NCBI GenBank assembly: GCA_009699865.1
Contig: WLNJ01000002.1
Span: 1-64,000, forward strand
Reading direction: 5' to 3'
Source of the DNA: Actinomycetota bacterium
Lineage (GTDB): Bacteria; Actinomycetota; Thermoleophilia; Solirubrobacterales; Solirubrobacteraceae
Length of the DNA stretch: 64,000 nucleotides
This document shows positions 27,975 to 48,279 of this stretch, in pieces (the first letter of the stretch is position 1; each line of letters begins with the position of its first letter). The translations under genes were made by a program, and so were the position numbers. Under the pieces are notes generated by a model that did no database searches, was not told where the DNA came from, and saw nothing but the letters and a program-made list of their open reading frames with translations.

Positions 27975-29861
27975 TCAGCCGTAGGTCTTATTGATGTGCG
28001 AGTGGAGGTCCCTCGCAACCTTCCCCGGAAGTCCCGGGACTGACTCAAGTTCGTCGCGACTGGCAGCAAAGACTGCCTCCGCTGTGCCGAAATGAGCCAA
28101 AAGCTGGCGCCGGCGGGTCGGCCCAACGCCAGGCAGACCGTCAAGCGCAGAGTCAGTCATAGCCTTACTCCTGCGCCTGCGGTGGTGCGTAATGGCAAAC
28201 CGGTGCGCTTCGTCCCGCACTCGCTGCAGGATCTGAAGCTCGGGGGTGTCGTGGTCGAGCATGATCGGTGCGCTGCTTCCCGGTACGAAGATCTCCTCGA
28301 TGCGCTTGGCGAGCGAAATCACAGCCACACCTTGCTCCGTGAAGCGTTTCAGGGACTTCAGCCCAGCTGAAAGTTGCCCAGGACCACCATCAATCACGAT
28401 CAGATTCGGCAGGCTGGCAAAGCTCGAGTCCCGCTCGGTGTCATGAGGGGAGAGATCACTCTCTGCCTCCCAGCGTTTGAGCCTTCTGGCAAGAACCTGC
28501 TCCATCGACGCGTAGTCGTCCGGCGCGCCCGCGACCGCATCCCTAATTCGGAATGACCGGTACTGGGCTTTGGCCGGCACTCCAGCCTCAAACACGACCA
28601 TCGACGCGACCGTCTCAGTCCCCATCAGATGGGAGATGTCGAAGCACTCGATCCTCAGCGGCGGCGCGTCAAGGCCTAGAACCTCAGCCAAGCCATCCAA
28701 TGATGCTGTCCTCTGCTGCCGACTTCGCTCCTCCCGCAGCCGCTCCTGCCCGAGCGCAAGCGTCGCGTTTCGCTCGGCCATCTCGATCAGCTGCCTGCGG
28801 TCGCCGCGTTCTCCACCGCCAACCTCGACTTTGGAGCCTCTGCGTTCACTGAGAGCATCTGCGATGGCGATCACCTGAGGTGAGTCGGCCAGATCTGATT
28901 GGACAATGACCAGCGGAGGAACAGCCGCAACATCCCCGTAGTGCTGCATCAGAAATGCCTCAGCAACCTCAGCCACAGTGCCTCCGGCGCTATCGAGGTA
29001 GAAGGAGAGTCTGTCGGTCAGGAACCCATCCCGGATCTGGAGCACTTGGGCATTAGCGTCGTTCTCGCCGACAGAGACGGCAACCGCGTCAAGTGTACCC
29101 GCGGCAATCCCGGCCACCCGCTGGCGCTCTAGGACTGCTTTTGCTGCCCGAAGACCATTGCGGGCTCTCGTGGCATCCTCATAGCGCTGCTCGCTTGATG
29201 CCAGGTCCATCTCGGCTTGGAGCTTCTGTTGTAACTCGTTGTGGCGGCCGGATAGGAAACCGATTGCGTCCTCAATCCCCAAGCGATAGCTCGCTGAGTC
29301 GATCTCTCCAATACACGGCCCAGCACAGCGCTCGATGTGGAAGTCAAGGCATGGTGACCCGCTTCGCCGACCGGGCTCGCTGCCTTCGCAGGACCTGAAC
29401 ATGAAGACACGGTTGAGCATCTCTACCGTCTTGCGTGCTGCCCGCGAGCTTGCGTATGGGCCGAAGTACAGGCGGTTCCTCCGACGCTTCTCCCGTGTCA
29501 GGTAAACCCGCGGGAACTCCTCGTCCATCGAAATGCCGATGAACGGATAGGACTTGTCGTCTCGCAGGAGGATGTTGTAGCGCGGCTTGTATCTGCGGAT
29601 GAAAGCCTGCTCCGTGAGGAGGGCTTCCGCCTCCGTCTTGACAACTACACACTCGATCTGGTCAACCGCAGCGATCATCTCCATCTGACGCCTCCCTGCA
29701 GGCGCGTTGAAATGCGACGCCACCCGTGAACGGATCGAATTTGCCTTGCCGACATAGATGACCTGATTCGCGCTGTTTCGGAATAGGTAAACGCCAGTCT
29801 CATCGGGCAGGGCGAGGCGCTGCTCGCGAATCCGCTCGTCGTTGGTCTGCAGATCACTCAT
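27975..29861 (-). CDS. uvrC: UvrABC excinuclease subunit C
   Basis: Makes both incisions in nucleotide excision repair. The 628-residue protein has the GIY-YIG nuclease domain (ETGVYLFRNSANQVIYVGKAN), a UVR motif near residue 200-235, the RNase H-like UvrC domain with RIECFDISHLMGTETVASMVVF and NLIVIDGGPGQL, and a C-terminal double helix-hairpin-helix (DGLPGVGPTRRRQLLAHFG). The ATG at 29861 is chosen over an upstream in-frame ATG at 29930, which would run into the divergent oxidoreductase gene. No LexA-box match was seen upstream, so SOS control is not evident. Confidence 0.96.
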   Translation of the reverse strand: MSDLQTNDERIREQRLALPDETGVYLFRNSANQVIYVGKANSIRSRVASHFNAPAGRRQMEMIAAVDQIECVVVKTEAEALLTEQAFIRRYKPRYNILLRDDKSYPFIGISMDEEFPRVYLTREKRRRNRLYFGPYASSRAARKTVEMLNRVFMFRSCEGSEPGRRSGSPCLDFHIERCAGPCIGEIDSASYRLGIEDAIGFLSGRHNELQQKLQAEMDLASSEQRYEDATRARNGLRAAKAVLERQRVAGIAAGTLDAVAVSVGENDANAQVLQIRDGFLTDRLSFYLDSAGGTVAEVAEAFLMQHYGDVAAVPPLVIVQSDLADSPQVIAIADALSERRGSKVEVGGGERGDRRQLIEMAERNATLALGQERLREERSRQQRTASLDGLAEVLGLDAPPLRIECFDISHLMGTETVASMVVFEAGVPAKAQYRSFRIRDAVAGAPDDYASMEQVLARRLKRWEAESDLSPHDTERDSSFASLPNLIVIDGGPGQLSAGLKSLKRFTEQGVAVISLAKRIEEIFVPGSSAPIMLDHDTPELQILQRVRDEAHRFAITHHRRRRSKAMTDSALDGLPGVGPTRRRQLLAHFGTAEAVFAASRDELESVPGLPGKVARDLHSHINKTYG

Positions 29862-29888
29862 CTCCACCACGACAATACGAGCAGGCAG

Positions 29889-29894
29889 TAGTCT
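29889..29894 (+). promoter_or_regulatory. Candidate leaderless -10 box
   Basis: TAGTCT, 7 nt before the ATG at 29902, in the 40-bp divergent spacer with uvrC. Confidence 0.5.
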
Positions 29895-29901
29895 GCCGTG
29901 C

Positions 29902-32154
29902 ATGTCAGCGACAGAGCAGGAGCGAGTCACTTACCGCACATGCCCTCTCTGCGAGGCAACATGCGGGCTTGAGATAACCCTCCGCGGCGACGAAGTAGTG
30001 AAGGTACGTGGGGATGAAGCCGACGTATTCTCCAAGGGGTTCATCTGCCCCAAGGGAGCCTCATTGGGTGCGCTACACGCAGACCCTGACCGCCTCAAGA
30101 CGCCGATGGTCAAGGAAGGCAACAGCCATCGGCCTGCAACTTGGGATGAAGCCTTTGAGCTGATCGCCGAGAAGCTGCAGCCAATCCTCGCTGCTGACCG
30201 GAACGCAGTAGGCATGTACTTCGGGAACCCCAACGCGCACAACCTCTCAAATCTTCTCTACAACAGGGTCTTCATCAAATCCGTTGGCTCACGCAACCAA
30301 TTCTCCGCCAGCAGCCTTGATCAGCTCCCCAAGCAGATCGCCAGCGGGCACATGTTCGGTTCCTCGCTCGGAGTGGCAATACCCGACATCGACCGCACCG
30401 ACTTCCTCCTGATTATGGGCGCCAACCCGCTTGCTTCCAATGGCAGCATGATGACCGCGCCTGACTTCCGGGGCCGTATTCGGGCAGTCCGTGAGCGCGG
30501 TGGGCGGGTCGTCGTTATTGACCCAGCGCGGACCCGCACTGCCAAAGAGGCCGACCTCCATCTAGCAATCACACCTGGCGCTGACGCCTTCCTCCTCTTC
30601 TCGATCATCAACACCCTCGTCGCTGAGGGCTATGTGGAGAAGGGCTTGGCCAAGCTCGGCAAGACAGCCGAGTTCCTTGCCGGCGTTGACGAGGTCTGTC
30701 AGCTGGCTGACCACTTTGCCCCTGAAACAGTCGCCCCGAAGTGTGGGATTACTGCCGACGAGATCCGCACCCTCGCCCGTGACCTCGCAAACGCAGACCG
30801 GGCAGCAATCTACGCGCGAATGGGCACCTGCACGCAGGAGTTCGGCACCGTGTCCTCTTGGCTTGTTGATGTCATCAACACACTGACTGGCAACCTCGAC
30901 CGGGAGGGCGGAGTCATGTTCCCCGACCCTGTCGCTGGGGGAATCTCCGGTGACCCGGGCAAGGGCCGCGGCATTGCCACTGGACGATGGGCCACCCGCG
31001 TCCGCGGACTCTCAGAGTCACTGGGAGAACTCCCAACTTCTGCTCTTGCAGAGGAAATCGACACGCCCGGAGAAGGGCAGATTCGCGCAATGTTCACGGT
31101 TGCTGGAAACCCGGTCCTGAGCTCACCCAATGTTGAAAGGCTTGAGAAGGCACTCGCCGGGCTTGACTTCATGGTCAGCATTGACCCTTACCTGAACGAG
31201 ACATCGCGCCATGCCGATGTGATCCTCCCCGCCCCATCCCCCCTGACCCGCTCGCACTACGACCTCGCCTTCTACCAGCTGTCAATCCGCAACATCAGCC
31301 GTTACTCACCCGCGCTCGTTGAGGCCGATCCTGAGTTCCCTGATGAGTGGGAGACACTGCTGCGGCTCTCAATGATCTGCGCAGGCCAGCCAGCTGATTC
31401 TGACATCAGCGGCCTTGATGACTTTGTCGCGCTCGAAGTTGCCAAGCGGGAGGTTGCTCGCCACAACTCACCGGCCTCCGGCATGTCCGCTGAGGAAGCC
31501 GTCGCCGCGACCTCACCCCGAGTTGGACCAGAGCGCCTCCTTGACCTCCTCCTGCGCTGCGGACCTGCCGGTGACGGGTTTGGCACCAACCCTGACGGTC
31601 TCAGCCTTGACCGGCTGATCGTGGAGGAGCACGGAGTGGACCTTGGGGCCCTCAAGCCACGGATGCCCGAGATGCTCCGCACGCCGAGCGGGATGATTGA
31701 GCTCGCGCCCGAGCCACTGACTGCCGATGTGCCGCGCCTGATCGCTGCACTCAACCGGCATGACGAAGGATTCGTCCTGATCGGCCGCCGCCACCTCCGC
31801 TCCAACAACTCATGGATGCACAACCTCGAGGGCCTGGTCAAGGGCCCCAAGCGCTGCACCCTTCAGATCAGCCCCGTTGACGCCGGGACGATTGGCGTCG
31901 ACGATGGCGGCAAGATCCTGATCCGGTCCAAGGTTGGCGAGTTGACCGCTGACGTGGAGATAACCGAGGACATCCTCCCTGGTGTCGTCAGCCTGCCTCA
32001 CGGGTGGGGTCACGGGCTCGACGGAACAACAACCAAGGTTGCCAATGCGTATGCGGGCGTGAACAGCAACGTTCTTACGGATGAGTCAGCGGTTGATGCC
32101 ATCTGTGGCAATGCAGTTCTCAACGGAATCCCCGTTGAGCTTGCTGTCGCCTAA
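29902..32154 (+). CDS. Molybdopterin-dependent oxidoreductase with one Fe-S cluster
   Basis: A 750-residue enzyme of the DMSO-reductase superfamily. The N-terminal [4Fe-4S] domain has CPLCEATCGLEI and, 30 residues on, GFICPKG. The molybdopterin domain follows with SASSLDQLPKQIASGHMFG, the LLIMGANPLASNGSMM cofactor segment, GRVVVIDPARTRTA and YARMGTCTQEFG. The C-terminal dinucleotide-binding domain starts near 640 (LIGRRHLRSNNSWMHNL) and includes LPHGWGHG. Substrate is unknown; related proteins are annotated as formate-dehydrogenase-like or assimilatory. No electron-transfer subunits, Mo-cofactor or twin-arginine genes are adjacent, so it is probably a soluble cytoplasmic enzyme. Confidence 0.9.
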   Translation: MSATEQERVTYRTCPLCEATCGLEITLRGDEVVKVRGDEADVFSKGFICPKGASLGALHADPDRLKTPMVKEGNSHRPATWDEAFELIAEKLQPILAADRNAVGMYFGNPNAHNLSNLLYNRVFIKSVGSRNQFSASSLDQLPKQIASGHMFGSSLGVAIPDIDRTDFLLIMGANPLASNGSMMTAPDFRGRIRAVRERGGRVVVIDPARTRTAKEADLHLAITPGADAFLLFSIINTLVAEGYVEKGLAKLGKTAEFLAGVDEVCQLADHFAPETVAPKCGITADEIRTLARDLANADRAAIYARMGTCTQEFGTVSSWLVDVINTLTGNLDREGGVMFPDPVAGGISGDPGKGRGIATGRWATRVRGLSESLGELPTSALAEEIDTPGEGQIRAMFTVAGNPVLSSPNVERLEKALAGLDFMVSIDPYLNETSRHADVILPAPSPLTRSHYDLAFYQLSIRNISRYSPALVEADPEFPDEWETLLRLSMICAGQPADSDISGLDDFVALEVAKREVARHNSPASGMSAEEAVAATSPRVGPERLLDLLLRCGPAGDGFGTNPDGLSLDRLIVEEHGVDLGALKPRMPEMLRTPSGMIELAPEPLTADVPRLIAALNRHDEGFVLIGRRHLRSNNSWMHNLEGLVKGPKRCTLQISPVDAGTIGVDDGGKILIRSKVGELTADVEITEDILPGVVSLPHGWGHGLDGTTTKVANAYAGVNSNVLTDESAVDAICGNAVLNGIPVELAVA

Positions 32155-32177: not shown

Positions 32178-33458
32178 TCAACCGACGAGTCTGACAATCA
32201 GACCTGTCTGGCTGTCTCTCAGCCAACCCAGGATTCTGCGCACGTAGGCACGTGTCTCGGGATAGGCCGGGACACAACCGCAACGCGTAACTGCTGTGGG
32301 GCCAGCGTTGTAGCCGGCGAGCGCTAGCGGAACCGACCCGAACCGCGCCAGCAGCTCGCGCATCAGACGGGCCTGCACCTGAATCGCCTCAGCTGGCTTG
32401 AAGGGGTCAATGTGGAACCGCAGGGCTTCGTCGGGCATCAACTGGCTTATCCCGCGCGCGCCTGCCGACGAGACGGATCTAGGCTGGAAGTCACTCTCAG
32501 CCCGGATCTGAGCTGCTAACAGGGCAGCCGACACACCCCAGCGCTTCGAGGCCGCAAGGATCATCATCCGATACTTGGCAGGAACCCATGGTTGAAGAGC
32601 ACCAGTGGAGCTCAATCTCCCCGCAGGGCGCGGGGCAAGCGCGCGTCCGAAGCCCACTGAGGTACTCCCCGGACTGCGTGTGTATCCGTAGTGCCAGGGC
32701 TCCCACGGGTAGCGCTGAATGAACCCAAACCGCCCAGCGTTGATCGAGAGCCAGCCGTATGTAGCGTCGGGTCCCAAGTCGAGTTCCGTTCCCAAGCGGT
32801 GCAGTGACTGACCCGGCCGAGCCACCCACTTTGGGTCTGGGTGGGCGGCAAAGAGCGCGGCCTGCTCCGCTGATGACCGCCACGCGCTGTTGACGGTGAG
32901 TCTGAGCCCGGCGGCCACGGCTGCGGTCGCCATGTGATCAAAGGCCGTCGCCACATCGGGTCGCATCGGCTTTCCCTGCCTCCATGTGAAGGGCCCGCTG
33001 TAATCACCCGGCCCCGGAGTCAAACCGCCGCCGAGCCAATCCACAACCTCCGCAGTGCTGGTTTCCCCGTCAGGGATTGCCACCGCAAGCGCTCCAAAGC
33101 CAACTCTGATCGGTTCTGTGACCTCCACCTCAACGCGGCCCGTAGGAGGGCTGGTGCCTGACTCGAGGAGCGCGATTCGGCGAATTCCATTGACAGCCCC
33201 CGTGACCTTGGCCGCGTGTGCCACCTGCCTCCTGTCGCCTCCTTCCCACATTGCCCGGGCGCCGCTGAGGGCGGCGAGGTCAGCAATAGCCTGATGCTGC
33301 TGGCGCAGCTCGAGTGCGCGCACCGTGCTCAGGGCAAGCATTGAACAGGCCGCAGCCCCAACGACGACCGCCAGCAGGAGCGGCAGGGCCTGGCCTGAGT
33401 CAGAACTAAGACCCAACGGCCGCTGGCGAATCAAGGGCCGAGCAACCCGGGCAGACAT
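32178..33458 (-). CDS. Fusion: pseudopilin-like anchor + VanY-type peptidase + lytic transglycosylase
   Basis: A 426-residue cell-wall protein with three parts. The N terminus (about 20-55) is a Tad-type pseudopilin/TadG-like helix: SGQALPLLLAVVVGAAACS, then AIADLAALSGARAM. Residues about 170-270 form an M15B D-alanyl-D-alanine carboxypeptidase with SAWRSS, SLHRLGTELDLG (H-x6-D) and WEPWHYGY. Residues about 295-425 form a soluble lytic transglycosylase with catalytic Glu in IRAESDFQPRSVSSAGARGISQLMP and ALAGYNAGPTAV. It should cut both the peptide and glycan parts of peptidoglycan outside the membrane. The ATG at 33458 overlaps the upstream gene by 28 nt. Last gene of the pseudopilin operon, hinting at local wall opening for an assembled structure. 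Confidence 0.88.
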   Translation of the reverse strand: MSARVARPLIRQRPLGLSSDSGQALPLLLAVVVGAAACSMLALSTVRALELRQQHQAIADLAALSGARAMWEGGDRRQVAHAAKVTGAVNGIRRIALLESGTSPPTGRVEVEVTEPIRVGFGALAVAIPDGETSTAEVVDWLGGGLTPGPGDYSGPFTWRQGKPMRPDVATAFDHMATAAVAAGLRLTVNSAWRSSAEQAALFAAHPDPKWVARPGQSLHRLGTELDLGPDATYGWLSINAGRFGFIQRYPWEPWHYGYTRSPGSTSVGFGRALAPRPAGRLSSTGALQPWVPAKYRMMILAASKRWGVSAALLAAQIRAESDFQPRSVSSAGARGISQLMPDEALRFHIDPFKPAEAIQVQARLMRELLARFGSVPLALAGYNAGPTAVTRCGCVPAYPETRAYVRRILGWLRDSQTGLIVRLVG

Positions 33459-34030
33459 GCCTCGATGGGGCTCACCCAGGCTCCCGGCGCCGCGATACCT
33501 GCGGCCACCAGTGCAGTCCCAAGCCCGACCTCGGGCAAGGACATCACGCCCATACGGACCCCTTCGGTTATGAGGAGTCGGCCCGCAGACACCCCGAAGC
33601 TCTCCGGAGTCCCCTCCCGAACAGCGATCAAACACGCATCAACCTCAGCGAGTAAGTCCTTCACTCGTATGTCCGATGGCCCCTCAACACCGAAGACAGG
33701 ACGGACACCTTGACTCGCGAGGAAGCCCCCGACTGACACTGCCTCATCGACCGTGTCCACTCTGCTCGTAACAAGCCGCCAGCTTGCCCGGGCGGGATGG
33801 CCTTGCTGACGGATCGCACCCCCCAGCCGTGCGGCCCCCAGGGTGGGCGGAAGCGAAACCCGCTGCGCAGACTCCCTCGGACCCGGCAGATCACAGCCTG
33901 AGGGGCCGTCGCTCGAGGCTGCCGAGAGAAGTACCACCGCCACAGGCCCAGTACGACGGGCGGTCAGGCTCACAGCCCCAGCCGCATCAGGCCCCAAGCC
34001 AGCGTTCCCTAGGACGCAGATTGAGTTCAT
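33431..34030 (-). CDS. Unrecognised protein of the pseudopilin operon
   Basis: I do not recognise this 199-residue protein. It begins MNSICVLGNAGLGPDAAGAVSLTARRTGPVAVV, alternating strand-like and helix-like segments, and continues with WRLVTSRVDTVDEAVSVGGFLASQG, VDACLIAVREGTP and GVMSLPEVGLGTALVAAG. The beginning vaguely resembles a P-loop ATPase of the CpaE/TadZ type with the Lys/Ser of the loop missing, but this is only an impression. No signal peptide or membrane helix is evident. Its ATG overlaps the stop of the TadE-like gene by 1 nt, and it overlaps the wall-hydrolase gene by 28 nt, so it is firmly part of the operon. Confidence 0.78.
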   Translation of the reverse strand: MNSICVLGNAGLGPDAAGAVSLTARRTGPVAVVLLSAASSDGPSGCDLPGPRESAQRVSLPPTLGAARLGGAIRQQGHPARASWRLVTSRVDTVDEAVSVGGFLASQGVRPVFGVEGPSDIRVKDLLAEVDACLIAVREGTPESFGVSAGRLLITEGVRMGVMSLPEVGLGTALVAAGIAAPGAWVSPIEACLPGLLGP

Positions 34031-34377
34031 CAGTTCGCCGCCCACCTGACAGTCGCCACCATTCCCGGGAGCTCGATGTCCCCCATCAGTGGGAGCCCAT
34101 GCATCGCAACCCGCGTCTGGGTTGCTCCGACCGTGATTACAGCCCGGGTCCTCGCCCATCCCGGAAGGGCATCCGCAGCAGCAGCCCGTCCGTCCCCACC
34201 CTCCAGCACCGCTATTGACCCCGCCGAGGCGGCCTCTTCAGCTACTCGCCGGCCAACGACCCAAAGGCCTAGAGAGGCGATCGCGAGTGAGAACGCGACA
34301 ACAAGTGGAGCAAGGGCGATCACCTCGCTGAAGGCCTGCCCGGCGTCCTCCCGGATTCCACCAATAGCCCGCCTCAT
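34030..34377 (-). CDS. TadE-like pseudopilin 2
   Basis: A 115-residue protein with a class III-type signal: a short charged leader (MRRAIGGIREDAGQ), then AFSEVIALAPLVVAFSLAIASLGLWVVG with Glu five residues after the G-Q, as in Tad minor pilins. The remaining 70 residues are small, strand-rich and end TVRWAAN. The start overlaps the previous gene by 4 nt (ATGA). Probably exported and inserted as a minor subunit of a Flp/Tad-like fibre; the ATPase, platform and prepilin peptidase genes are not in the window. Confidence 0.8.
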   Translation of the reverse strand: MRRAIGGIREDAGQAFSEVIALAPLVVAFSLAIASLGLWVVGRRVAEEAASAGSIAVLEGGDGRAAAADALPGWARTRAVITVGATQTRVAMHGLPLMGDIELPGMVATVRWAAN

Positions 34378-34712
34378 CGCTGGGCCGGAAAGCCGGCCGA
34401 TGCCTCAACCGTCCCAAGAATTGACCTGAGCCCTCCGGCTGAGATGGGAATGCTGACGGTCACTCGGCCATCACGCGCGACCACCGAAGCCGACTTGGCG
34501 ACACTCGTGGGTAGCGCCCCGGCGATTCCCTCCCGGGGGCTCTTCCCAAGCGCGGCCGCCCGGGCCCCGGCCCGCGCCGCGACCCCGGCGAGCTCTGCCG
34601 TCCTTCCCGCGAGTGAGACCTCCCAAACGCCCCAACCCAGGACAACTATCAGGGGGACAGCGAGCAGGAACTCAACCGTGGCCTGCCCGCTGTCCGTTTT
34701 ACCCCATTCCAC
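34374..34712 (-). CDS. TadE-like pseudopilin 1
   Basis: A 112-residue protein: charged leader EWGKTDSGQ, then the hydrophobic ATVEFLLAVPLIVVLGWGVWEVSLAG with the conserved Glu five residues after the G-Q, typical of TadE. A helix rich in Ala (AELAGVAARAGARAAALG) and a strand-rich C-terminal domain with SARDGRVTVSIPI-like pattern follow. It starts at a GTG (34712) and is the first gene of the four-gene run that ends with the wall-hydrolase fusion. About 100 bp separate it from the membrane-protein gene upstream; no promoter was recognised there. Confidence 0.82.
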   Translation of the reverse strand: MEWGKTDSGQATVEFLLAVPLIVVLGWGVWEVSLAGRTAELAGVAARAGARAAALGKSPREGIAGALPTSVAKSASVVARDGRVTVSIPISAGGLRSILGTVEASAGFPAQR

Positions 34713-35177: not shown

Positions 35178-36008
35178 TCAGGCCGCAGCCTTGCCGGCTT
35201 TAGCTGTCTTGCGCTTCGCCGGGGCAGTCTTGATCGAAGCTGGCTTCTCGGCAACGGGAAGCTCCGGAGAGAAGCGGTAGCCAACACCAAAGTGGGTGTG
35301 AATGTAATCCCAGTCCGGTGAGAACAGGGCGATCTTCTGGCGCAGTTTCCTGATGAACACATCAACGGAACGATCCCCGTGAGCCATCTGGAAGCCCCAG
35401 ACACGCTGGTAGATCTCTTCGCGCTCAAGAACGTTGCCCGGATTGTCAGCTAGAAGGTGAAGCAGCTCAAACTCTCGGCGGGTGAGGTCGAGGCTGCGCC
35501 CTTCGCAGAATGCCTGGAACTGGTCCGCACGAATAGAAAGGTCCCCGGCCAAGATCGGCTCACGGGTAAGGCCCTGTGCTGGCTTACGCCGACGCATGAT
35601 CGATTCGATGCGAGCGATCAGCTCTTCCGGATGGCAAGGCTTTGTAATCCAATCGTCTGCACCGGCCCTAATGCCGCGAACCCTTTGGCCTACGGAGCTG
35701 GGAGCCGTGGTGACAACGATTGCCATCTCAGGCAGATTGCCGCGCAGATACTCGATCGTCTCAGCCCACTGTGGCCCCAACAGAGTCGGGTCGATCACAA
35801 GAGCGTGGAGACGCATCGACACGAGCGCGTCAATCGCTGGAACCTGAGTCAGGTCTCGCTGTTGCCAGCCGAGTGACTCAGCGCGCCGACGGAGCACCGT
35901 TCCGAATCCGGTATCGCGGTCAACGACAGCGATCCGAAGTGCGGGGGTGGAGGCGAATGAAGGTCCTGCGTCCAGATGCTCGACGCGGTGAGTTTCAGTA
36001 ATCGACAT
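35178..36008 (-). CDS. OmpR/PhoB-type response regulator (probable phosphate regulator)
   Basis: A 276-residue two-domain regulator. The receiver (about 25-140) keeps the acidic pair in IAVVDRDTG, the phospho-acceptor Asp in LVIDPTLLG, Thr in VVTTAP and Lys in WITKPCHPEEL. A linker RRRKPAQG leads to the winged helix (about 160-260) with LDLTRREFELLHLLADNPGNVLERE, RSVDVFIRKLRQKI and HFGVGYRFSPE. A basic Lys/Ala tail follows. It lies 3' of the DUF47-phoU-pst cluster, and PHO-box-like direct repeats precede pstS, so it is the natural candidate for the PhoP/RegX3-like activator. No sensor kinase is adjacent. Confidence 0.92.
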   Translation of the reverse strand: MSITETHRVEHLDAGPSFASTPALRIAVVDRDTGFGTVLRRRAESLGWQQRDLTQVPAIDALVSMRLHALVIDPTLLGPQWAETIEYLRGNLPEMAIVVTTAPSSVGQRVRGIRAGADDWITKPCHPEELIARIESIMRRRKPAQGLTREPILAGDLSIRADQFQAFCEGRSLDLTRREFELLHLLADNPGNVLEREEIYQRVWGFQMAHGDRSVDVFIRKLRQKIALFSPDWDYIHTHFGVGYRFSPELPVAEKPASIKTAPAKRKTAKAGKAAA

Positions 36009-36063: not shown

Positions 36064-36107
36064 GTTAACAAGTCGTTCACACCTACTATCTCGGTGATTC
36101 ACGGATT
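36064..36107 (+). promoter_or_regulatory. Weak PHO-box-like repeats upstream of the response regulator
   Basis: Reading + strand in 11-bp steps gives GTTAACAAGTC, GTTCACACCTA, CTATCTCGGTG and ATTCACGGATT. Three of the four units resemble the KTTCAC repeats upstream of pstS, but they are on the strand opposite to the regulator gene. Confidence 0.25.
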
Positions 36108-36727
36108 TAGGCTGAGCCACGGCGGAGGGTGAGTGTCTCGAGCGCGTGAGCCACACCCTCGCAGGCGTCAACAGCCTTCTCCAGCGACTCGTAGACATCC
36201 TTCCAGCGGATGACGACCATTGGGTCGATCCCTCCAGCGAAGAGTGCGCCAAGGCCCTCACGGCTAACCCTGTCGCCCTCATTTTCAAGCCGGTGAAGTT
36301 CAACAATCCGTGAGGTGAGGTCATTCCCCTTGCGCAGATCCTTCAATGCCCCCGCGACCTCAGCAGCTGCCTCAGCGAGGATCCCGCCCAACTCTGAGGC
36401 TTGGACCATCGGCGCCTCTATTCCATAGCGGCCGATCATGTCCGCAGCCTCCTCCGAGTGATCGACAATGTCGTCCACCGCCGAGGCGAGCGTGTGTAGG
36501 TCGCCCACGTCTTGGTAGGGCTTTGAAGCAGTGTCCAACTTGCGCAGGATCGCGTGAGTGATGCGATCACCCTCCTGCTCCGCTTCTAGAACCCGCTCCG
36601 AGAGTTTCGCCACATCAGGGATCGAGCCCAACAGAGTGTCAAGCACCACTGCTGCTGCAGCAGCATTCTTGCCTGCACGCTCGAACAGGTCGAGCAGTTC
36701 CTTATCTCTTGATCCACGCTTGGCCAT
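36107..36727 (-). CDS. DUF47 (PhoU-like) protein
   Basis: A 206-residue all-helical protein of the DUF47/YkaA family, PhoU-like proteins often linked with Pit phosphate transporters. Features include LFERAGKNAAAAAVVLDTLL, the acidic metal-binding ELEAEQEGDRITHAIL-type segment (VLEAEQEGDRITH), ASAVDDIVDHSEEAADMI and LHRLENEGDRVSREGL, each with the E-x-x-x-D pattern. The ATG at 36727 (MAKRGSRDK) is preferred over the longer frame, which overlaps phoU. No pit gene is nearby; its position next to phoU suggests a second brake on phosphate uptake or signalling. Confidence 0.88.
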   Translation of the reverse strand: MAKRGSRDKELLDLFERAGKNAAAAAVVLDTLLGSIPDVAKLSERVLEAEQEGDRITHAILRKLDTASKPYQDVGDLHTLASAVDDIVDHSEEAADMIGRYGIEAPMVQASELGGILAEAAAEVAGALKDLRKGNDLTSRIVELHRLENEGDRVSREGLGALFAGGIDPMVVIRWKDVYESLEKAVDACEGVAHALETLTLRRGSA

Positions 36728-36740
36728 AGTGAAGTCTGTT

Positions 36741-37460
36741 CTAGCGGTCGCGGCTGTCGCCGGCCTGCGATGCATCCGCAAATTCGCGGAACACGCCGGT
36801 CACCACGAAGGCGATCTGCTCGCCGATGTCAACGGCGTTGTCGCCGATTCGCTCCAGGCATCTGGCCGCAAGCGTCATAGTCATTGCCCACTCACGCAAG
36901 TCAAGGTCATTTCCAACTTCAAGCGCCCGTCGGAAGATTGCCTTGTTGAGCTCGTTGACCTTCTGGTCTCGCTCGGCGAGGTCAACAGCCATCTCAGGGT
37001 CACGACCTTCGAACGCCTTCATCGACTGGCGGACGATCTGGCGGACGGCCATCCCCATCTCCTCCATCATGCTGAGGATCTGAGGGTCAGTTGGTGGTGC
37101 GGTACCCGAGACTGGAATCAGCTTCGAGATGTTCACGCACTGGTCGCCCATCCGCTCCATGTTGCGGATCACATGCAGGAGCGCGGCTAGTAGTCGGAGG
37201 TCACCTGCCACCGGGGCCTGGCGGGCGAAGAGAGAGAGGACGCCTTGGTGGATCTGGAGGTAACGGCCATCGATCCGGTCGTCATCTGCCACAACCAGCT
37301 GAGCGAGCTCGATGTCCTGGTGGGCTAGCGCTTCCAAGGAACGATCTAGTGCGCCGACTACAAGTTCGATGCCCTCAAGTGTGTCGCGCTCAAGGCGGGC
37401 GATCTCATCCCGATATTGAATCCGGTGAGGAACTTGGAGGTCTGGGTCCGGTGTTTCCAT
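36741..37460 (-). CDS. phoU: Phosphate signalling protein PhoU
   Basis: A 239-residue protein made of two three-helix PhoU repeats: RDEIARLERDTLEGIELVVGALDRSLEAL, LRLLAALLHVIRNMERMGDQCVNISKL in the first, and DLREWAMTMTLAARCLERIGDNAVDIGEQIAFVVTG in the second. The E-R-x-G-D-x-x-x-x-I metal-binding motif is present in both. PhoU normally restrains PstSCAB and the Pho sensor kinase when phosphate is plentiful. It is coupled to pstB (1-nt overlap of stop and start) and precedes the DUF47 gene by 13 bp. Confidence 0.96.
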   Translation of the reverse strand: METPDPDLQVPHRIQYRDEIARLERDTLEGIELVVGALDRSLEALAHQDIELAQLVVADDDRIDGRYLQIHQGVLSLFARQAPVAGDLRLLAALLHVIRNMERMGDQCVNISKLIPVSGTAPPTDPQILSMMEEMGMAVRQIVRQSMKAFEGRDPEMAVDLAERDQKVNELNKAIFRRALEVGNDLDLREWAMTMTLAARCLERIGDNAVDIGEQIAFVVTGVFREFADASQAGDSRDR

Positions 37461-38410
37461 CAGCCGAACTTACCTGTCACGTAGTCCTCAGTCCGCTTGT
37501 CGGATGGATTTGTGAAGATCGTGTCGGTTGCGTCGTACTCGACGACAACGCCTGTACGCCGCTTCTCGTCCTCAGCCATCTCGACTGTGAAGAAGGCTGT
37601 CTTGTCAGAGACACGCGCGGCCTGCTGCATGTTGTGAGTCACGATGACGATGGAGATCCGCTCCTTCAGCTCGGCCATCAGGTCCTCGATGCGCCCTGTG
37701 CTGATGGGGTCAAGAGCAGAACACGGCTCGTCCATCAACAGAACGTCAGGGTCTGTGGCAAGCGCCCGGGCAATACAGAGGCGCTGCTGCTGCCCACCCG
37801 ACATGCCAAAGGCGTTCTCGGTCAGGCGGTCCTTGACCTCATCCCAAAGCGCACCGCGAACTAGGGCTCGCTCAACGATCTCGTCCATGTCCCCTTCCAT
37901 GCCGACAACACGTGGGCCGAAGGCAACGTTGTCGTAGATCGACTTAGGAAATGGGTTTGGCTTCTGGAAGACCATCCCAATCCGCTTGCGCACTTGGACA
38001 GGGTCGATCTCATCTGCGTAAAGGTCCTGCCCGTGATAGATGACATGGCCGCCTACCTTGGCGCCGGGAATCAGGTCGTTCATGCGGTTCAAGCAGCGCA
38101 GGAAAGTGCTCTTGCCACAGCCCGATGGACCGATCAAGGCAGTTACCTCGCGCAGGCCGAAGCTAAGTGAGACATCGCGAATCGCACGGTGCTCGCCGTA
38201 GTGAACCTCCACGTCGGAGCAGTCGAAAATGACCTCCACTGGGGCAGGGGCTTCTTCAGGTCCCTTGAGGTCAGTCATTTCCAAATCGTATTCACTATCC
38301 ACGGGTGGCAGGTATGGGGTCAGGTCGGTCACGCTCCCAGATACTCCCACCTCAGCTGGCGCTTTGGGAATCTGATTATCTGGATTGGGTCCGGCAGTGC
38401 TTGCTGACAC
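37460..38410 (-). CDS. pstB: Phosphate ABC transporter ATPase PstB
   Basis: Energises high-affinity phosphate import. The ABC domain has Walker [11 protein letters not shown]-loop [12 protein letters not shown], signature [16 protein letters not shown], Walker [14 protein letters not shown] and the switch His in [10 protein letters not shown]. At 316 residues it is about 55 longer than usual because of an acidic/proline-rich N terminus; an internal ATG at 38278 ([10 protein letters not shown]) would give a more typical length, so the start is uncertain. It directly follows pstA. Confidence 0.95.
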
Positions 38411-38411
38411 G

Positions 38412-39311
38412 TCACCACCTCTGTTCGTAGCGGTTGCGCATCACGATCGCGACACCGTTCATCGCAAGCAAGATTCCGAGCAAGACAATGCTGGCTGTTG
38501 CGGCTTGGTTAACGAAGACGGGGTTGGGGTCCTGGGTCCAGCTGAAGATCTGGATCGGCAGGGCAGTGAACGCATCCCCTAGCCCCGAGGGGTTGAAGCG
38601 GGGCGACGATGCTGCTCCGATTACCAGCAGGGGTGCGGTCTCGCCAATGGCGCGCGAGAGGCTCAGGATGATGCCGGTGACCATTCCCGCCCGGGCGCCT
38701 GGAAGCACCTGGCGAGAGACCATCTGCCACTTGGTGGCCCCGAGGGCTAAGGCCCCTTCTCTGATCGAAGGCGGGACCGCCCTGATTGACTCGCGGGCCA
38801 CGATGATCACGACCGGCAGGACGAGCAGCCCAAGCGTCAATCCTCCGGCGAGCAGCACAGGACCGAGCCCGAGCGGACCGCGGACGATGAACGCGAGACC
38901 GAGAATTCCGTAGACGACCGACGGCACCGCTGCCAAGTTCTGGATGTTCACTTCAATCATGCGGTTCCACCAGCGTGTCTTATCGGCGTACTCCTCGAGG
39001 TAGAGCGCCGTGGCGATCCCAACTGGGATCACAAACACCGCGGTCAGAAGCATCAGGTAGAGAGTCCCGACAATGGCTGACTGTGCACCTGAGTTGGCTG
39101 GGTTGATGCGCGATGGAAAATTGAGGAAGAACTGAAGGCTCAGGTCCGGGGCACCCTTGACCACGGTCTGGATGATGAGTGCCAAGAGTGAGACAAGCGC
39201 TAAGGCGATCGCGCCATACATGAGGATGTCGAAGATAAGGGCGCGCCTGTTCGTCCTCTCCCCCCTGCGCATCCCCCTGAGGGCACTATCGGCTATCCGC
39301 TGACCGGTCAT
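38412..39311 (-). CDS. pstA: Phosphate ABC transporter permease PstA
   Basis: A 299-residue membrane subunit with about six helices. It carries the permease EAA-type loop, [27 protein letters not shown], that contacts PstB, and the [19 protein letters not shown] segment of PstA proteins. Start overlaps pstC by 4 nt. Confidence 0.95.
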
Positions 39312-40261
39312 TCGTAGACCTGCCTATACCGACTAACAACCCGGGTTGAAACCGCATTGAGGAGAAGGGTCACACAGAAGAGCGTGAAGCCAACGACGAA
39401 GATTGTCTCGTACTTGAGAGTGCCTTGAGGGATATCACCGCGTGCAGTGGCTGCAATGAACGACGCCATCGACTGGAACGAACCGGTGGGGTTCAGGCTC
39501 ATGGACGGTGACTGACCACCCGCGATGAGAATGATCACCGTCTCGCCGATTGCCCTCGATGCACCAAGAATGAGCGCGGCGACAATCCCCGACAGGGCAG
39601 CCGGGAAGACGACCCGGAGGGCAACCTGAAGTCGACCGGCCCCGAGTCCATAGGCCCCCTCGCGCAGAGACTGCGGAACTGAACGCATGGCGTCCTCGGC
39701 CACCGACGCGATTGTTGGGGTGACTAGGAGTCCGAGGACAAGGCCGGCCGCCAGACCATTGAACTCTGAGACGGGAATGCCGAAGACATCGCGGAGGATC
39801 ACCGGTGTCACAAAGGTCAGTGCGAAATAGCCGAAGATGATGGTCGGCATCCCTGCCAATAGCTCAAGGATCGGCTTGACGGTCTTGCGGACCTTGGGCT
39901 TTGCAAACTCAGCCAGATAAATAGCGGCCAGGAGCCCACACGGTACGGCGACCAAGAGCCCGATGCCGGTCAGATAGAACGTACCCCAGAGCAGTGGCAA
40001 CACCCCAAAGGACTGCTGATCACCAGAAAGCAGCGGGGTCCACTTGGTACCGGCGAAGTAGGCCAGCGGCGATACCTCACCGAAGAAAGAGATGGTCTGC
40101 TGAAGCAGCGTCACAACAATCGCTGTTGTCGTAGCGACGGACAGCAGCGCAGCAAGAAACAGGAGTCCCTTAATCAGGGACTCCCGCGCGGAACGCGCTG
40201 AGCGGGCCCGGACCAGATCGGCCCGAACCCGCTCGGCAGAGGTCGTTGAGACCGCGTTCAC
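39308..40261 (-). CDS. pstC: Phosphate ABC transporter permease PstC
   Basis: A 317-residue membrane subunit with about six helices. PstC features are FGVLPLLWGTFYLTGIGLLVAVPCGLLAAIYLAEFA, LLAGMPTIIFGYFAL, the coupling loop LREGAYGLGAGRLQVALRVVFPAALSG and LGASRAIGETVIILIAGG. The GTG start shares one base with the pstS stop. It pairs with PstA to form the channel. Confidence 0.95.
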   Translation of the reverse strand: MNAVSTTSAERVRADLVRARSARSARESLIKGLLFLAALLSVATTTAIVVTLLQQTISFFGEVSPLAYFAGTKWTPLLSGDQQSFGVLPLLWGTFYLTGIGLLVAVPCGLLAAIYLAEFAKPKVRKTVKPILELLAGMPTIIFGYFALTFVTPVILRDVFGIPVSEFNGLAAGLVLGLLVTPTIASVAEDAMRSVPQSLREGAYGLGAGRLQVALRVVFPAALSGIVAALILGASRAIGETVIILIAGGQSPSMSLNPTGSFQSMASFIAATARGDIPQGTLKYETIFVVGFTLFCVTLLLNAVSTRVVSRYRQVYE

Positions 40262-41208
40262 TACTTCGCGTTCTTCTCCGCGGTGGCGAGCTGCGTCTTG
40301 GCCGTCGCGAGCTGCGCGTCGGTCATTGGGACGAGCTTGGCCGTGCCGGCGATTGAGATCGCGTTGTCAACGGCACTGGTGAGGAAAGCCGCCACTTGGG
40401 GCTTTGCCATTGACTTTTCGTTGACGTACATGAACAGGGGCCTCGCCAACGGAGCGTATGTGCCGTCCTGGACGGTGGCGACCGTGGGCTTGATGCAACC
40501 CTTGCCTGAGTCAACGCCGACGATGGTCAGCTTGCTGCCAGCGGCTTCCGCATAGCTGTAGCCGAAGTAGCCAAAGCCACCCTTGTCGCCCTCGACACCG
40601 GTTACGAGCTGGTTGTCATCCTCAGATGCCTGGTAGCTCTCGCGTGTAACACCCTTCTCTCCGTTGATCTTCTCGGTGAAGAAGTCAAAGGTTCCGGAAT
40701 CAGTACCCGGACCAAAGAGCGACAGCTTCGTGGTTGAGAATTTAGGGTCAAGCTGGGAGAGGGAGTTGATCTGCGATCCCTTATTCCAGATCTGCTTGAG
40801 CTGGTCTGTCGTAAGACAATCCACGCCGAGAGCAGGGTTGGCAACAACTGCGATCCCGTCATTGGCGACCTGAACCTGCTGATAGGTGATGCCGGCCTTC
40901 TTGCAAGCTGCCACCTCTTCAGGTGAGATCTCGCGGGAGGCGTCTGAGATGTCGGTCTCTCCAGCGCAGAACTTCTGGAAGCCGCCACCCGTACCGGACT
41001 CACCTACGGCGATCTTGACTCCACCTTGGTCCTGGTTGAAGGATTCAGCAGCAGCCTGAGCAAGCGGGAACACCGTGCTTGAACCGTCTACTCGGATTGA
41101 GCCACTGAGGTTGCCCCCACCGGACGATGAGGAACCGCCACATGCGGTCAGGCTGACGCCCAACACCATTACTGCTCCTGCTGTGATGAAGCCCTTCTTG
41201 CTGATCAA
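40261..41208 (-). CDS. pstS: Phosphate-binding lipoprotein PstS
   Basis: The extracellular phosphate receptor of the Pst system, 315 residues. It has a signal peptide and lipobox SLTACGGSS (Cys about 23), a Ser/Gly linker, then the PstS fold with IRVDGSSTVFPLAQAAAESF, VGESGTGGGFQKFCAGETDISDASREI (phosphate loop), LGVDCLTTDQLKQIWNKGS and GPGTDSGTFDFFTEKI. It starts at a TTG, 7 nt after a clear AAGGAG Shine-Dalgarno. It is the first gene of pstSCAB-phoU-DUF47 and lies 66 bp after the PHO-box repeats. Confidence 0.96.
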   Translation of the reverse strand: MISKKGFITAGAVMVLGVSLTACGGSSSSGGGNLSGSIRVDGSSTVFPLAQAAAESFNQDQGGVKIAVGESGTGGGFQKFCAGETDISDASREISPEEVAACKKAGITYQQVQVANDGIAVVANPALGVDCLTTDQLKQIWNKGSQINSLSQLDPKFSTTKLSLFGPGTDSGTFDFFTEKINGEKGVTRESYQASEDDNQLVTGVEGDKGGFGYFGYSYAEAAGSKLTIVGVDSGKGCIKPTVATVQDGTYAPLARPLFMYVNEKSMAKPQVAAFLTSAVDNAISIAGTAKLVPMTDAQLATAKTQLATAEKNAK

Positions 41209-46992: not shown

Positions 46993-48279
46993 TCACACCG
47001 CGAGACAGTCGGCCCTTGGTAGCCAGCCAAGGCCAGGGAGCTGTGTAGCGACCGAGGTAAGCCGTTGATCATCCGTAGAGCTGCTTGCGTCTGCCCCGAG
47101 CCGGAGGCCTAACGCTCCTCCAGCTCCCACTCCGGCCACCCTCCGGCTAAGGCTCCATCTCCGGACCGTCCTCACGCCGCGCTGAGCCAGTCCCACGGAC
47201 AGCCTTCCCTTGGCTTCCAGCAGGCCAGCAGGGTCCAGATTCCGCCCGGCAGCAAGGAGGTCTACCGCGGCCTCCCGGTCGGCTTCTGAAGCTAGTTCCA
47301 GCGTGACCTCGTTGTCGATCACTTCGCCATCACCGGTTCGGCTGTCTCCTATCACCTGCCTCAGCTTCGTTGGAAGACGAAAGCCCCGCCTAGTCGAGAG
47401 CTTGCTCTCCTTGAAGATCTTCAGCCGCGTGGGGGCCCCATTTAGGTCGGTCTCCAATGACGCCACAGCGTTGGCATCCAGCTGCGCGTCGAGTCCACCA
47501 CCGAACAGATCGAGAATCCCCGTGACCCGATCATCTAGGCGCATGAACCAGGTTGTGCCCGTCTTGGTTGTACGGCGGCCCAAGGCACCGCGAAGTGTCG
47601 CCTCGAGCTTGCCGCCGATCGGCCCAGTTCCAAAACCGAGCGACCCACCGGCGGTGAAACCGCCCGATATCCAGCGTTCATCCGGCTCAGGTGGAGGTTT
47701 GGGCGCTCCCGCTAGGACGCCACAGAGAGGACAGACCTTCCCTAGGGCGCTTCTAAGGCGTCCATCGAGCCTCTGGGAGCCTCCGAACGCACTAAGGAAG
47801 CTCTGGGCCGCCTTTGCGCTTGGGAGCACCCAGACGCGCCCAGAGGTCACAGCAGCGCCCCCGTCGATAGCTGCCTCCCCTCTGGCTCCCCACGGTCCGA
47901 GCCGCATGTGCGCGCCGACTGCGGCTCCGAGCCCCGCGCGTGCCCCATCCGAGAAGGACACCCTCACCTTCCCGTTCGACATTGACTCGACCACCAGACC
48001 GAGTTGAGCAGCGAGCCGCACTATTCCCACATCAACTGAGAACTGCTGGTTTCCAGTCTTCCGGGCAAGCGGGCAGACCTCAAGATCAGCTGGCAACGAC
48101 GCGGCGTGGATAGGTGGGCATCGCTGCTCTGACACCTCGCAGATGCCCCGTCTGATTGATGCCTCCACGGCGGCCCCTAGGCCACCGCTCGTCAGAGCCG
48201 TAGCTGCCCCGAGAACGATCATCACCAGCAAGGACAAGGCTAGGTATTCCGTGGTGCCTTGCCCGGAGTCATCGCGCAT
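46993..48279 (-). CDS. Large protein with pseudopilin-type N terminus
   Basis: A 428-residue protein. The first 33 residues follow the Flp/TadE pattern: charged MRDDSGQG, Glu five residues after the G-Q, then TTEYLALSLLVMIVLGAATAL. The rest is unusual for a pilin: about 100 residues with cysteines (GICEVSEQRC, EVCPL), a glycine-rich region with short motifs such as SLGFGTGPIGGKLEATLRGALG and LFGGGLDAQLDANAV that look like extended beta hairpins, a C-P-L-C-G motif, and a basic C-terminal part. No enzyme family is recognised. The ATG at 48279 is preferred; a longer frame would run into the ABC operon promoter. It could be a large tip or anchor subunit. Confidence 0.8.
   Translation of the reverse strand: MRDDSGQGTTEYLALSLLVMIVLGAATALTSGGLGAAVEASIRRGICEVSEQRCPPIHAASLPADLEVCPLARKTGNQQFSVDVGIVRLAAQLGLVVESMSNGKVRVSFSDGARAGLGAAVGAHMRLGPWGARGEAAIDGGAAVTSGRVWVLPSAKAAQSFLSAFGGSQRLDGRLRSALGKVCPLCGVLAGAPKPPPEPDERWISGGFTAGGSLGFGTGPIGGKLEATLRGALGRRTTKTGTTWFMRLDDRVTGILDLFGGGLDAQLDANAVASLETDLNGAPTRLKIFKESKLSTRRGFRLPTKLRQVIGDSRTGDGEVIDNEVTLELASEADREAAVDLLAAGRNLDPAGLLEAKGRLSVGLAQRGVRTVRRWSLSRRVAGVGAGGALGLRLGADASSSTDDQRLTSVATQLPGLGWLPRADCLAV

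Follow-up and report, generated by a model that had tools for sequence, protein, structure and literature searches.

A cassette of pilin genes in the actinobacterial family Solirubrobacteraceae includes a protein that joins a predicted pilin module to two predicted wall-cutting domains. On balance, we lean towards reading it as part of a Tad tip whose capping pilin would carry a two-headed murein cutter, used to open the wall of the cell itself. The cassette lies in a stretch of 64,000 nucleotides (contig WLNJ01000002.1, positions 1 to 64,000; hereafter the window) of a genome of 1.70 Mb in 69 contigs, 92% complete. Calls were made from the genes and from profile searches (Pfam, NCBIfam) of the window proteins. 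Four minus-strand genes overlap tightly over 34712-32178 and encode two TadE-like minor prepilins (TadE1 and TadE2), a protein called P199 and the Tad(pilin)-VanY-SLT fusion. The first-pass annotation of the window had proposed this arrangement, and both the open reading frames and the Pfam matches bear it out. It had also read G-Q leaders, an H-x6-D motif, a W-H motif and a catalytic Glu in these proteins. All of them are present, and the active-site residues turn out to be invariant among full-length homologues of the fusion (93/93).

Pfam places VanY (54.4 bits) and SLT (61.3 bits) on the fusion, both above cut-off. The VanY residues His212, Asp219, Glu245 and His248, which make up the zinc and catalytic motifs H-x6-D and E-x2-H, are identical in all 93 homologues, and so are the catalytic Glu313 of SLT and the tested residues of its Glu-Ser, G..Q and AYNAG motifs. 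Such invariance excludes chance as the source of these motifs. The SLT part of an AlphaFold2 model of the fusion also matches a solved lytic transglycosylase (5ohu, Z 16.9, root-mean-square deviation 1.6 over 124 residues). The NCBIfam models of the VanY resistance families score far below cut-off. The best NCBIfam match of the SLT domain is the BB0259-type flagellar assembly lytic transglycosylase (NF047373), with 67 bits for a cut-off of 234; proteins of that type have other partner domains and belong to another organelle. From its sequence, the fusion is predicted to contain a D,D-carboxypeptidase (VanY, M15B) and a lytic transglycosylase (SLT, family 1), both with intact active sites.

Profiles and the structural model indicate that the N terminus of the fusion is a pilin module and not a plain signal anchor. 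The Pfam Tad profile (PF13400) falls exactly at this end of the protein, with 18.0 bits for a cut-off of 22.3, and the NCBIfam model of the Rv3654c family (TIGR03816) scores 22.5 bits there for a cut-off of 50.95. At E<=0.01, PF13400 matches 13 of 21 homologues and TIGR03816 matches 20 of them. The 93 full-length homologues, 7 of which come from one further family of the class Thermoleophilia (f5), keep Gly at position -1 (90/93) and Gln at position +1 (92/93) of the putative cleavage site. Their alignment displays a hydrophobic stretch after a short leader, as in type IV prepilins with a class III leader. In the AlphaFold2 model, the G|Q site marks the start of helix alpha1 (residues 13-63), after which come a second helix with beta-strands (87-132), a low-confidence linker, VanY and SLT, in this order. 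The confidence of this model, given as the predicted local distance difference test score (pLDDT), averages 70, with about 80 in the pilin part and lower values in the VanY part. A fold search with the whole model returned chains that cover its SLT part only and none for the pilin module, so that the assignment of the latter rests on profiles, on the secondary structure of the model and on motif conservation. The genome has a single A24 prepilin peptidase gene over the cut-off, which makes its product a candidate for processing the G|Q leaders.

TadE1 matches the Pfam TadE family above cut-off, and the NCBIfam TadE_Rv3655c model below cut-off (20.7 bits). The TadE_Rv3655c and Rv3654c families comprise minor pilins encoded in flp loci of actinobacteria. 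The flp operon of Mycobacterium tuberculosis is treated in a published study (PMC9531140). Position +5 after the cleavage site separates the two kinds of protein: it holds Glu in 91/123 TadE proteins and in 0/84 fusions, where the residue is mostly Leu. According to a review, the subunit that caps a tip complex of minor pilins lacks Glu5, and in modular minor pilins short linkers attach the grafted domains (PMC10191384). In Myxococcus, TadE/F/G-like pilins have been argued, from genetics and models, to be interchangeable Tad tips whose large member shows a variable C-terminal domain (PMC12075869). By analogy, two pilins with Glu5 and one modular pilin without it would fit the published tip plan, and we consider it quite probable that the fusion is the tip-capping, TadG-like minor pilin.

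The Tad(pilin)-VanY-SLT architecture is a lineage-wide trait of part of the Thermoleophilia. Long matches to the fusion occur in 63 of 81 genomes of the Solirubrobacterales (the window genome and its relatives), most of the others having no match or one to SLT only. Carriers include Conexibacter, Patulibacter, Solirubrobacter, Paraconexibacter and many metagenome-assembled genomes. These are actinobacteria of soil and water, and the fusion is present both in 1.7-Mb and in 7-Mb genomes. In a sample of the class, full three-domain matches were found in the Solirubrobacterales and in f5, where many members have them, and in a phylum sample of 296 genomes none from outside the Thermoleophilia matched beyond the SLT part. 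The first-pass annotation regarded a hydrolase of this sort as rare among Tad systems. This is true of the phylum, but inside the Solirubrobacterales it is the rule. Public metagenome-assembled records titled Bifidobacterium breve (L072, L098, L112 and L137) also carry the fusion; they look like Solirubrobacterales and their titles appear to be wrong.

The genes around the fusion recur as well. The recurrent order in the Solirubrobacterales is response regulator, P118, TadE, TadE, P199, fusion. We counted neighbours at 70 non-redundant loci with at least 1.9 kb of readable upstream DNA. Two TadE genes lie upstream of the fusion at 65 of these loci, within 2 kb at 61 and at 2.5-3.7 kb at 4; one TadE was found at 2 of the remaining loci and none, within the DNA scanned, at 3. 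The loci of f5 have P118, both TadE genes and the fusion together, and P199 was not detected in them.

As the first-pass annotation remarked, the window has no ATPase or platform gene among its 64,000 nucleotides. A search of the genome found TadA, TadB, TadC and a CpaB-like protein on another contig. The only T2SSE-family ATPase of the genome has its best match in TIGR03819, the model of actinobacterial TadA, with 326 bits for a cut-off of 373. The CpaB-like SAF protein is encoded before it and two T2SSF platform proteins (TadB/TadC) after it, and the Pfam T2SSE and T2SSF profiles match the TadA and platform proteins above cut-off. The immediate neighbour of this TadABC locus (L002 7366-13579) is mraW, a gene of the division and cell wall cluster, and the locus adjoins mraW in 9/9 relatives read (L148-L157). 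In the window genome the locus comes with its own response regulator and histidine kinase. Fusion and TadA co-occur: 58 of the 81 genomes have both, 5 have the fusion only, 5 TadA only and 13 neither. With genomes at least 90% complete, the same four counts become 46, 2, 2 and 11 (Fisher test, 1e-8, kinship ignored), and with genomes at least 95% complete they become 31, 0, 0 and 3. In a few genomes of the order (G006, G010, G027, G062 and G055; L206-L215), one contig holds a second TadA paralogue and, not far from it, Flp-type pilin genes.

Scanned for pilin motifs, the window, the Tad locus and the peptidase locus gave no convincing pilin of Flp size, only the two TadE proteins and a protein of 428 amino acids. 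Pfam gave no match for the latter (window 46996-48279, minus strand), whose class III leader reads MRDDSG|QGTTEYLALSLLVMIVLG. Its homologues are found in 24 of the 81 genomes, all of which have the fusion (one as a fragment), and in several they lie 15-80 kb from it. The protein is a candidate further pilin subunit of the same machine.

P199 went unrecognised in the first-pass annotation, and structure prediction assigns it a ParA/MinD fold. Neither P199 nor its P-loop-bearing relatives gave a usable match in Pfam, and P199 is placed by structure prediction only. Its AlphaFold2 model (pLDDT 89) matches FlhG, ParA and MinD (4rz3, 5u1g and 1hyq) with a Foldseek probability of 1.00, and ParF (4e03) with a Z of 13.5 and a root-mean-square deviation of 3.2 over 159 residues. 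The profile family of P199 comprises 85 loci in the Solirubrobacterales, redundant copies included. The deviant Walker A Lys form occurs in 0/49 aligned members; a CG(A/S/T)-type remnant of the P-loop is kept in 9/49, and the window copy has none. Pairwise profile comparison with CpaE_hom_Actino gave a weak match that brings the P-loops into register (E 7e-4; probability 26% for the local and 53% for the global comparison). In other families of the class (G157, G168, G123 and G189) a CpaE-type gene lies directly beside TadA. In the loci of the order that were read, no such gene was found at that place, nor did those of larger relatives show a TadZ between TadA and the CpaB-like gene. Since the cassette has P199 instead, we infer that P199 stands in for TadZ; it is probably a degenerate TadZ/CpaE relic or substitute. 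TadZ/CpaE and the FlhG/MinD-type positioning ATPases have the same fold, whereas P199 lies in a tip cassette and its P-loop is gone in the window copy.

In the reading that we favour, the cassette encodes the minor pilins of the tip of a Tad-family type IV filament machine, and the capping, TadG-like one would have acquired a pair of murein-cutting domains. As prepilins, TadE1, TadE2 and the fusion would be inserted in the membrane, and the A24 prepilin peptidase would cut them at G|Q. The Glu5-lacking fusion would then sit on top, with the two Glu5-bearing TadE proteins beneath it, and this complex would prime the filament and be pushed outward by TadA/B/C, encoded elsewhere. The first thing that SLT, acting on glycan strands, and VanY, acting on peptide stems, would encounter is the thick peptidoglycan of the cell itself, in which they would make a local opening. 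It is from the sequence anatomy, the conserved active sites, the operon and the co-occurrence with the machine that we infer cleavage, tip position, enzyme activity and own-wall target. Granted that the fusion is a tip pilin, a role on the cell's own wall seems reasonably likely. There is a functional precedent for hydrolase-aided pilus exit: LytF, a separate hydrolase, aids extrusion of the competence pilus through a monoderm wall (PMC13192262).

Several observations weigh against a tip pilin that cuts its own wall. The PF13400 and TIGR03816 scores of the window fusion are below the curated cut-offs. The counts of co-occurrence between fusion and TadA ignore phylogeny, though the genomes that lack both belong to eight genera; one exception to the co-occurrence is G027, where a TadA lies 6 kb from an Flp gene and has the look of a second, conventional paralogue. 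There is no linkage between the cassette and the TadABC locus, which are on different contigs or far apart. TadA occurs without this fusion in other families of the class, and the hydrolase is therefore not a general requirement of Tad machines. Finally, the Flp major pilin (PF04964) gave only a chance-level match in the window genome, which is 92% complete, and Flp is easily missed; the same profile matched in 7/61 genomes of the relatives set, most relatives being without it.

The want of a recognised Flp pilin in the window genome would also be in line with a short pseudopilus, in which TadE1, TadE2 and the fusion would form a membrane-anchored piston that positions and pushes the murein hydrolase, for wall remodelling or secretion, and not a long pilus. 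This alternative would agree with the location of several Flp genes of relatives near a second TadA paralogue, and with the position of the TadABC locus beside mraW in 9/9 relatives read. Yet Flp pilins are short and divergent, hence easily overlooked, and the 428-residue protein, which has a class III leader and is confined to genomes that have the fusion, whole or as a fragment, could supply another subunit. We regard the short pseudopilus as unlikely. We also doubt a broader proposal, that a Tad-type machine has turned into a self-drilling envelope device, pilus or short pseudopilus, which mainly cuts or remodels the cell's own wall and is tied to the division and wall gene cluster. Under it, the machine would have no clearly recognisable substrates but three minor pilins, among them the two-headed murein hydrolase, a notion to which we give a low probability.

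The enzymes might instead be aimed at other cells, for contact-dependent killing or for harvesting wall material or DNA. In Myxococcus, it is by variable domains at their tips that the Kil Tad pili kill (PMC12075869), and a long fibre would let a tip-exposed enzyme reach neighbours. Nevertheless, a monoderm must first get through its own wall, neither an immunity gene nor a partner gene was seen in the cassette, and the fusion spans genomes from 1.7 Mb to 7 Mb and travels with a machine located beside the cell's own division and wall cluster, all of which makes a target outside the cell decidedly improbable. Very little speaks, in our view, for the N-terminal helix being merely the membrane anchor of a housekeeping wall hydrolase that stands in this operon by chance. 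The weak profile scores of the helix in the window protein would be in line with such an anchor, but the G|Q site is conserved, the model has a pilin-type helix and sheet, TIGR03816 matches 20/21 homologues, TadE pairs stand upstream at 65/70 loci and in f5, and the fusion co-occurs with TadA. The first-pass annotation had itself raised the possibilities of an ordinary signal anchor and of a domain order common without pseudopilin neighbours, and these same results point away from both.

The genes of the cassette and of its immediate upstream region are listed in Table 1. P118 had no match in Pfam or NCBIfam. It is uncertain whether the response regulator belongs to the cassette, because the same gene also continues the pst-phoU locus. 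Upstream of the cassette and on the same strand (window 36107-41208, minus) are the pst phosphate-uptake operon, phoU and a DUF47 (PhoU-like) gene, and then comes the OmpR/PhoB-type regulator. Since the cassette stands behind the pst-phoU-regulator genes on one strand, its control by phosphate is possible. We rejected the oxidoreductase gene downstream (29842-32154, plus strand) as a member of the cassette: it is convergent and, although a neighbour in some genomes, it is absent in others.

Table 1. Genes of the pilin-hydrolase cassette and its upstream neighbours in the window.
Feature	Coordinates	Strand	Remarks
TadE1, minor prepilin, 112 amino acids	34374..34712	-	GTG start; leader MEWGKTDSG|QATVEF, Glu at +5; Pfam TadE 27.8 bits
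TadE2, second minor prepilin, 115 amino acids	34030..34377	-	Leader MRRAIGGIREDAG|QAFSEV, Glu at +5; Pfam TadE 18.1 bits, below cut-off
P199, 199 amino acids, predicted ParA/MinD fold, decayed P-loop, probable TadZ/CpaE relic	33431..34030	-	AlphaFold2 model and Foldseek
Tad(pilin)-VanY-SLT fusion, putative TadG-like capping minor pilin	32178..33458	-	Start ATG 33458 or TTG 33434; Pfam, TIGR03816, model
P118, small hydrophobic membrane protein, probably four-helix	34816..35172	-	In the order and in f5, conserved upstream of the two TadE genes
OmpR/PhoB-type response regulator	35178..36008	-	5 bp upstream of P118; in the order often adjoins the cassette

Modular tip pilins are already known (PMC8179133, PMC12607857, PMC12075869). 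The closest plan is that of the TadE/TadF/TadG tips, including KilL/M/N of Myxococcus (PMC12075869), which likewise combine two small pilins with a larger one bearing an added C-terminal domain and use a TadA/TadB/TadC machine. There, the added part consists of binding or unknown domains, whereas here it is VanY and SLT, the cassette is unlinked and the host is a monoderm. The Rv3655c-Rv3654c pair (NF041390, TIGR03816) resembles TadE1 and the N terminus of the fusion by profile matches, but the model of the Rv3654c family (length 109) extends no further than the pilin module, which in the fusion is followed by about 290 hydrolase residues. CpaL of Caulobacter (PMC12607857) and PilB/PilC of Streptococcus sanguinis (PMC8179133) are also modular minor pilins with a grafted domain that is thought to be presented at the tip. 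Unlike in the fusion, their modules are vWA or lectin domains for sensing or adhesion, not murein hydrolases, and PilB keeps Glu5. LytF of S. sanguinis, acting with the Com pilus, is similarly a murein hydrolase that aids the exit of a filament (PMC13192262), but it is a separate secreted CHAP enzyme, whereas the cutter is here part of a pilin.

For the Tad pilus, no peptidoglycan hydrolase or lytic transglycosylase has been reported, and TadG was described as uncharacterised (PMC12307814, 2025). We found no tip pilin with murein hydrolases in a Tad system in the literature searched, mostly open papers. The fusion, at the TadG position and with two predicted murein-cutting domains whose active sites appear intact, would extend what modular pilin tips are known to do by enzymatic cutting of the wall. 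The lineage has cultured members, of which Conexibacter arvalis, Patulibacter minatonensis and Solirubrobacter soli have the cassette, and the passage of a monoderm pilus through the wall is therefore directly testable. Our results suggest that in these bacteria the fibre may bring its own drill through the thick wall.

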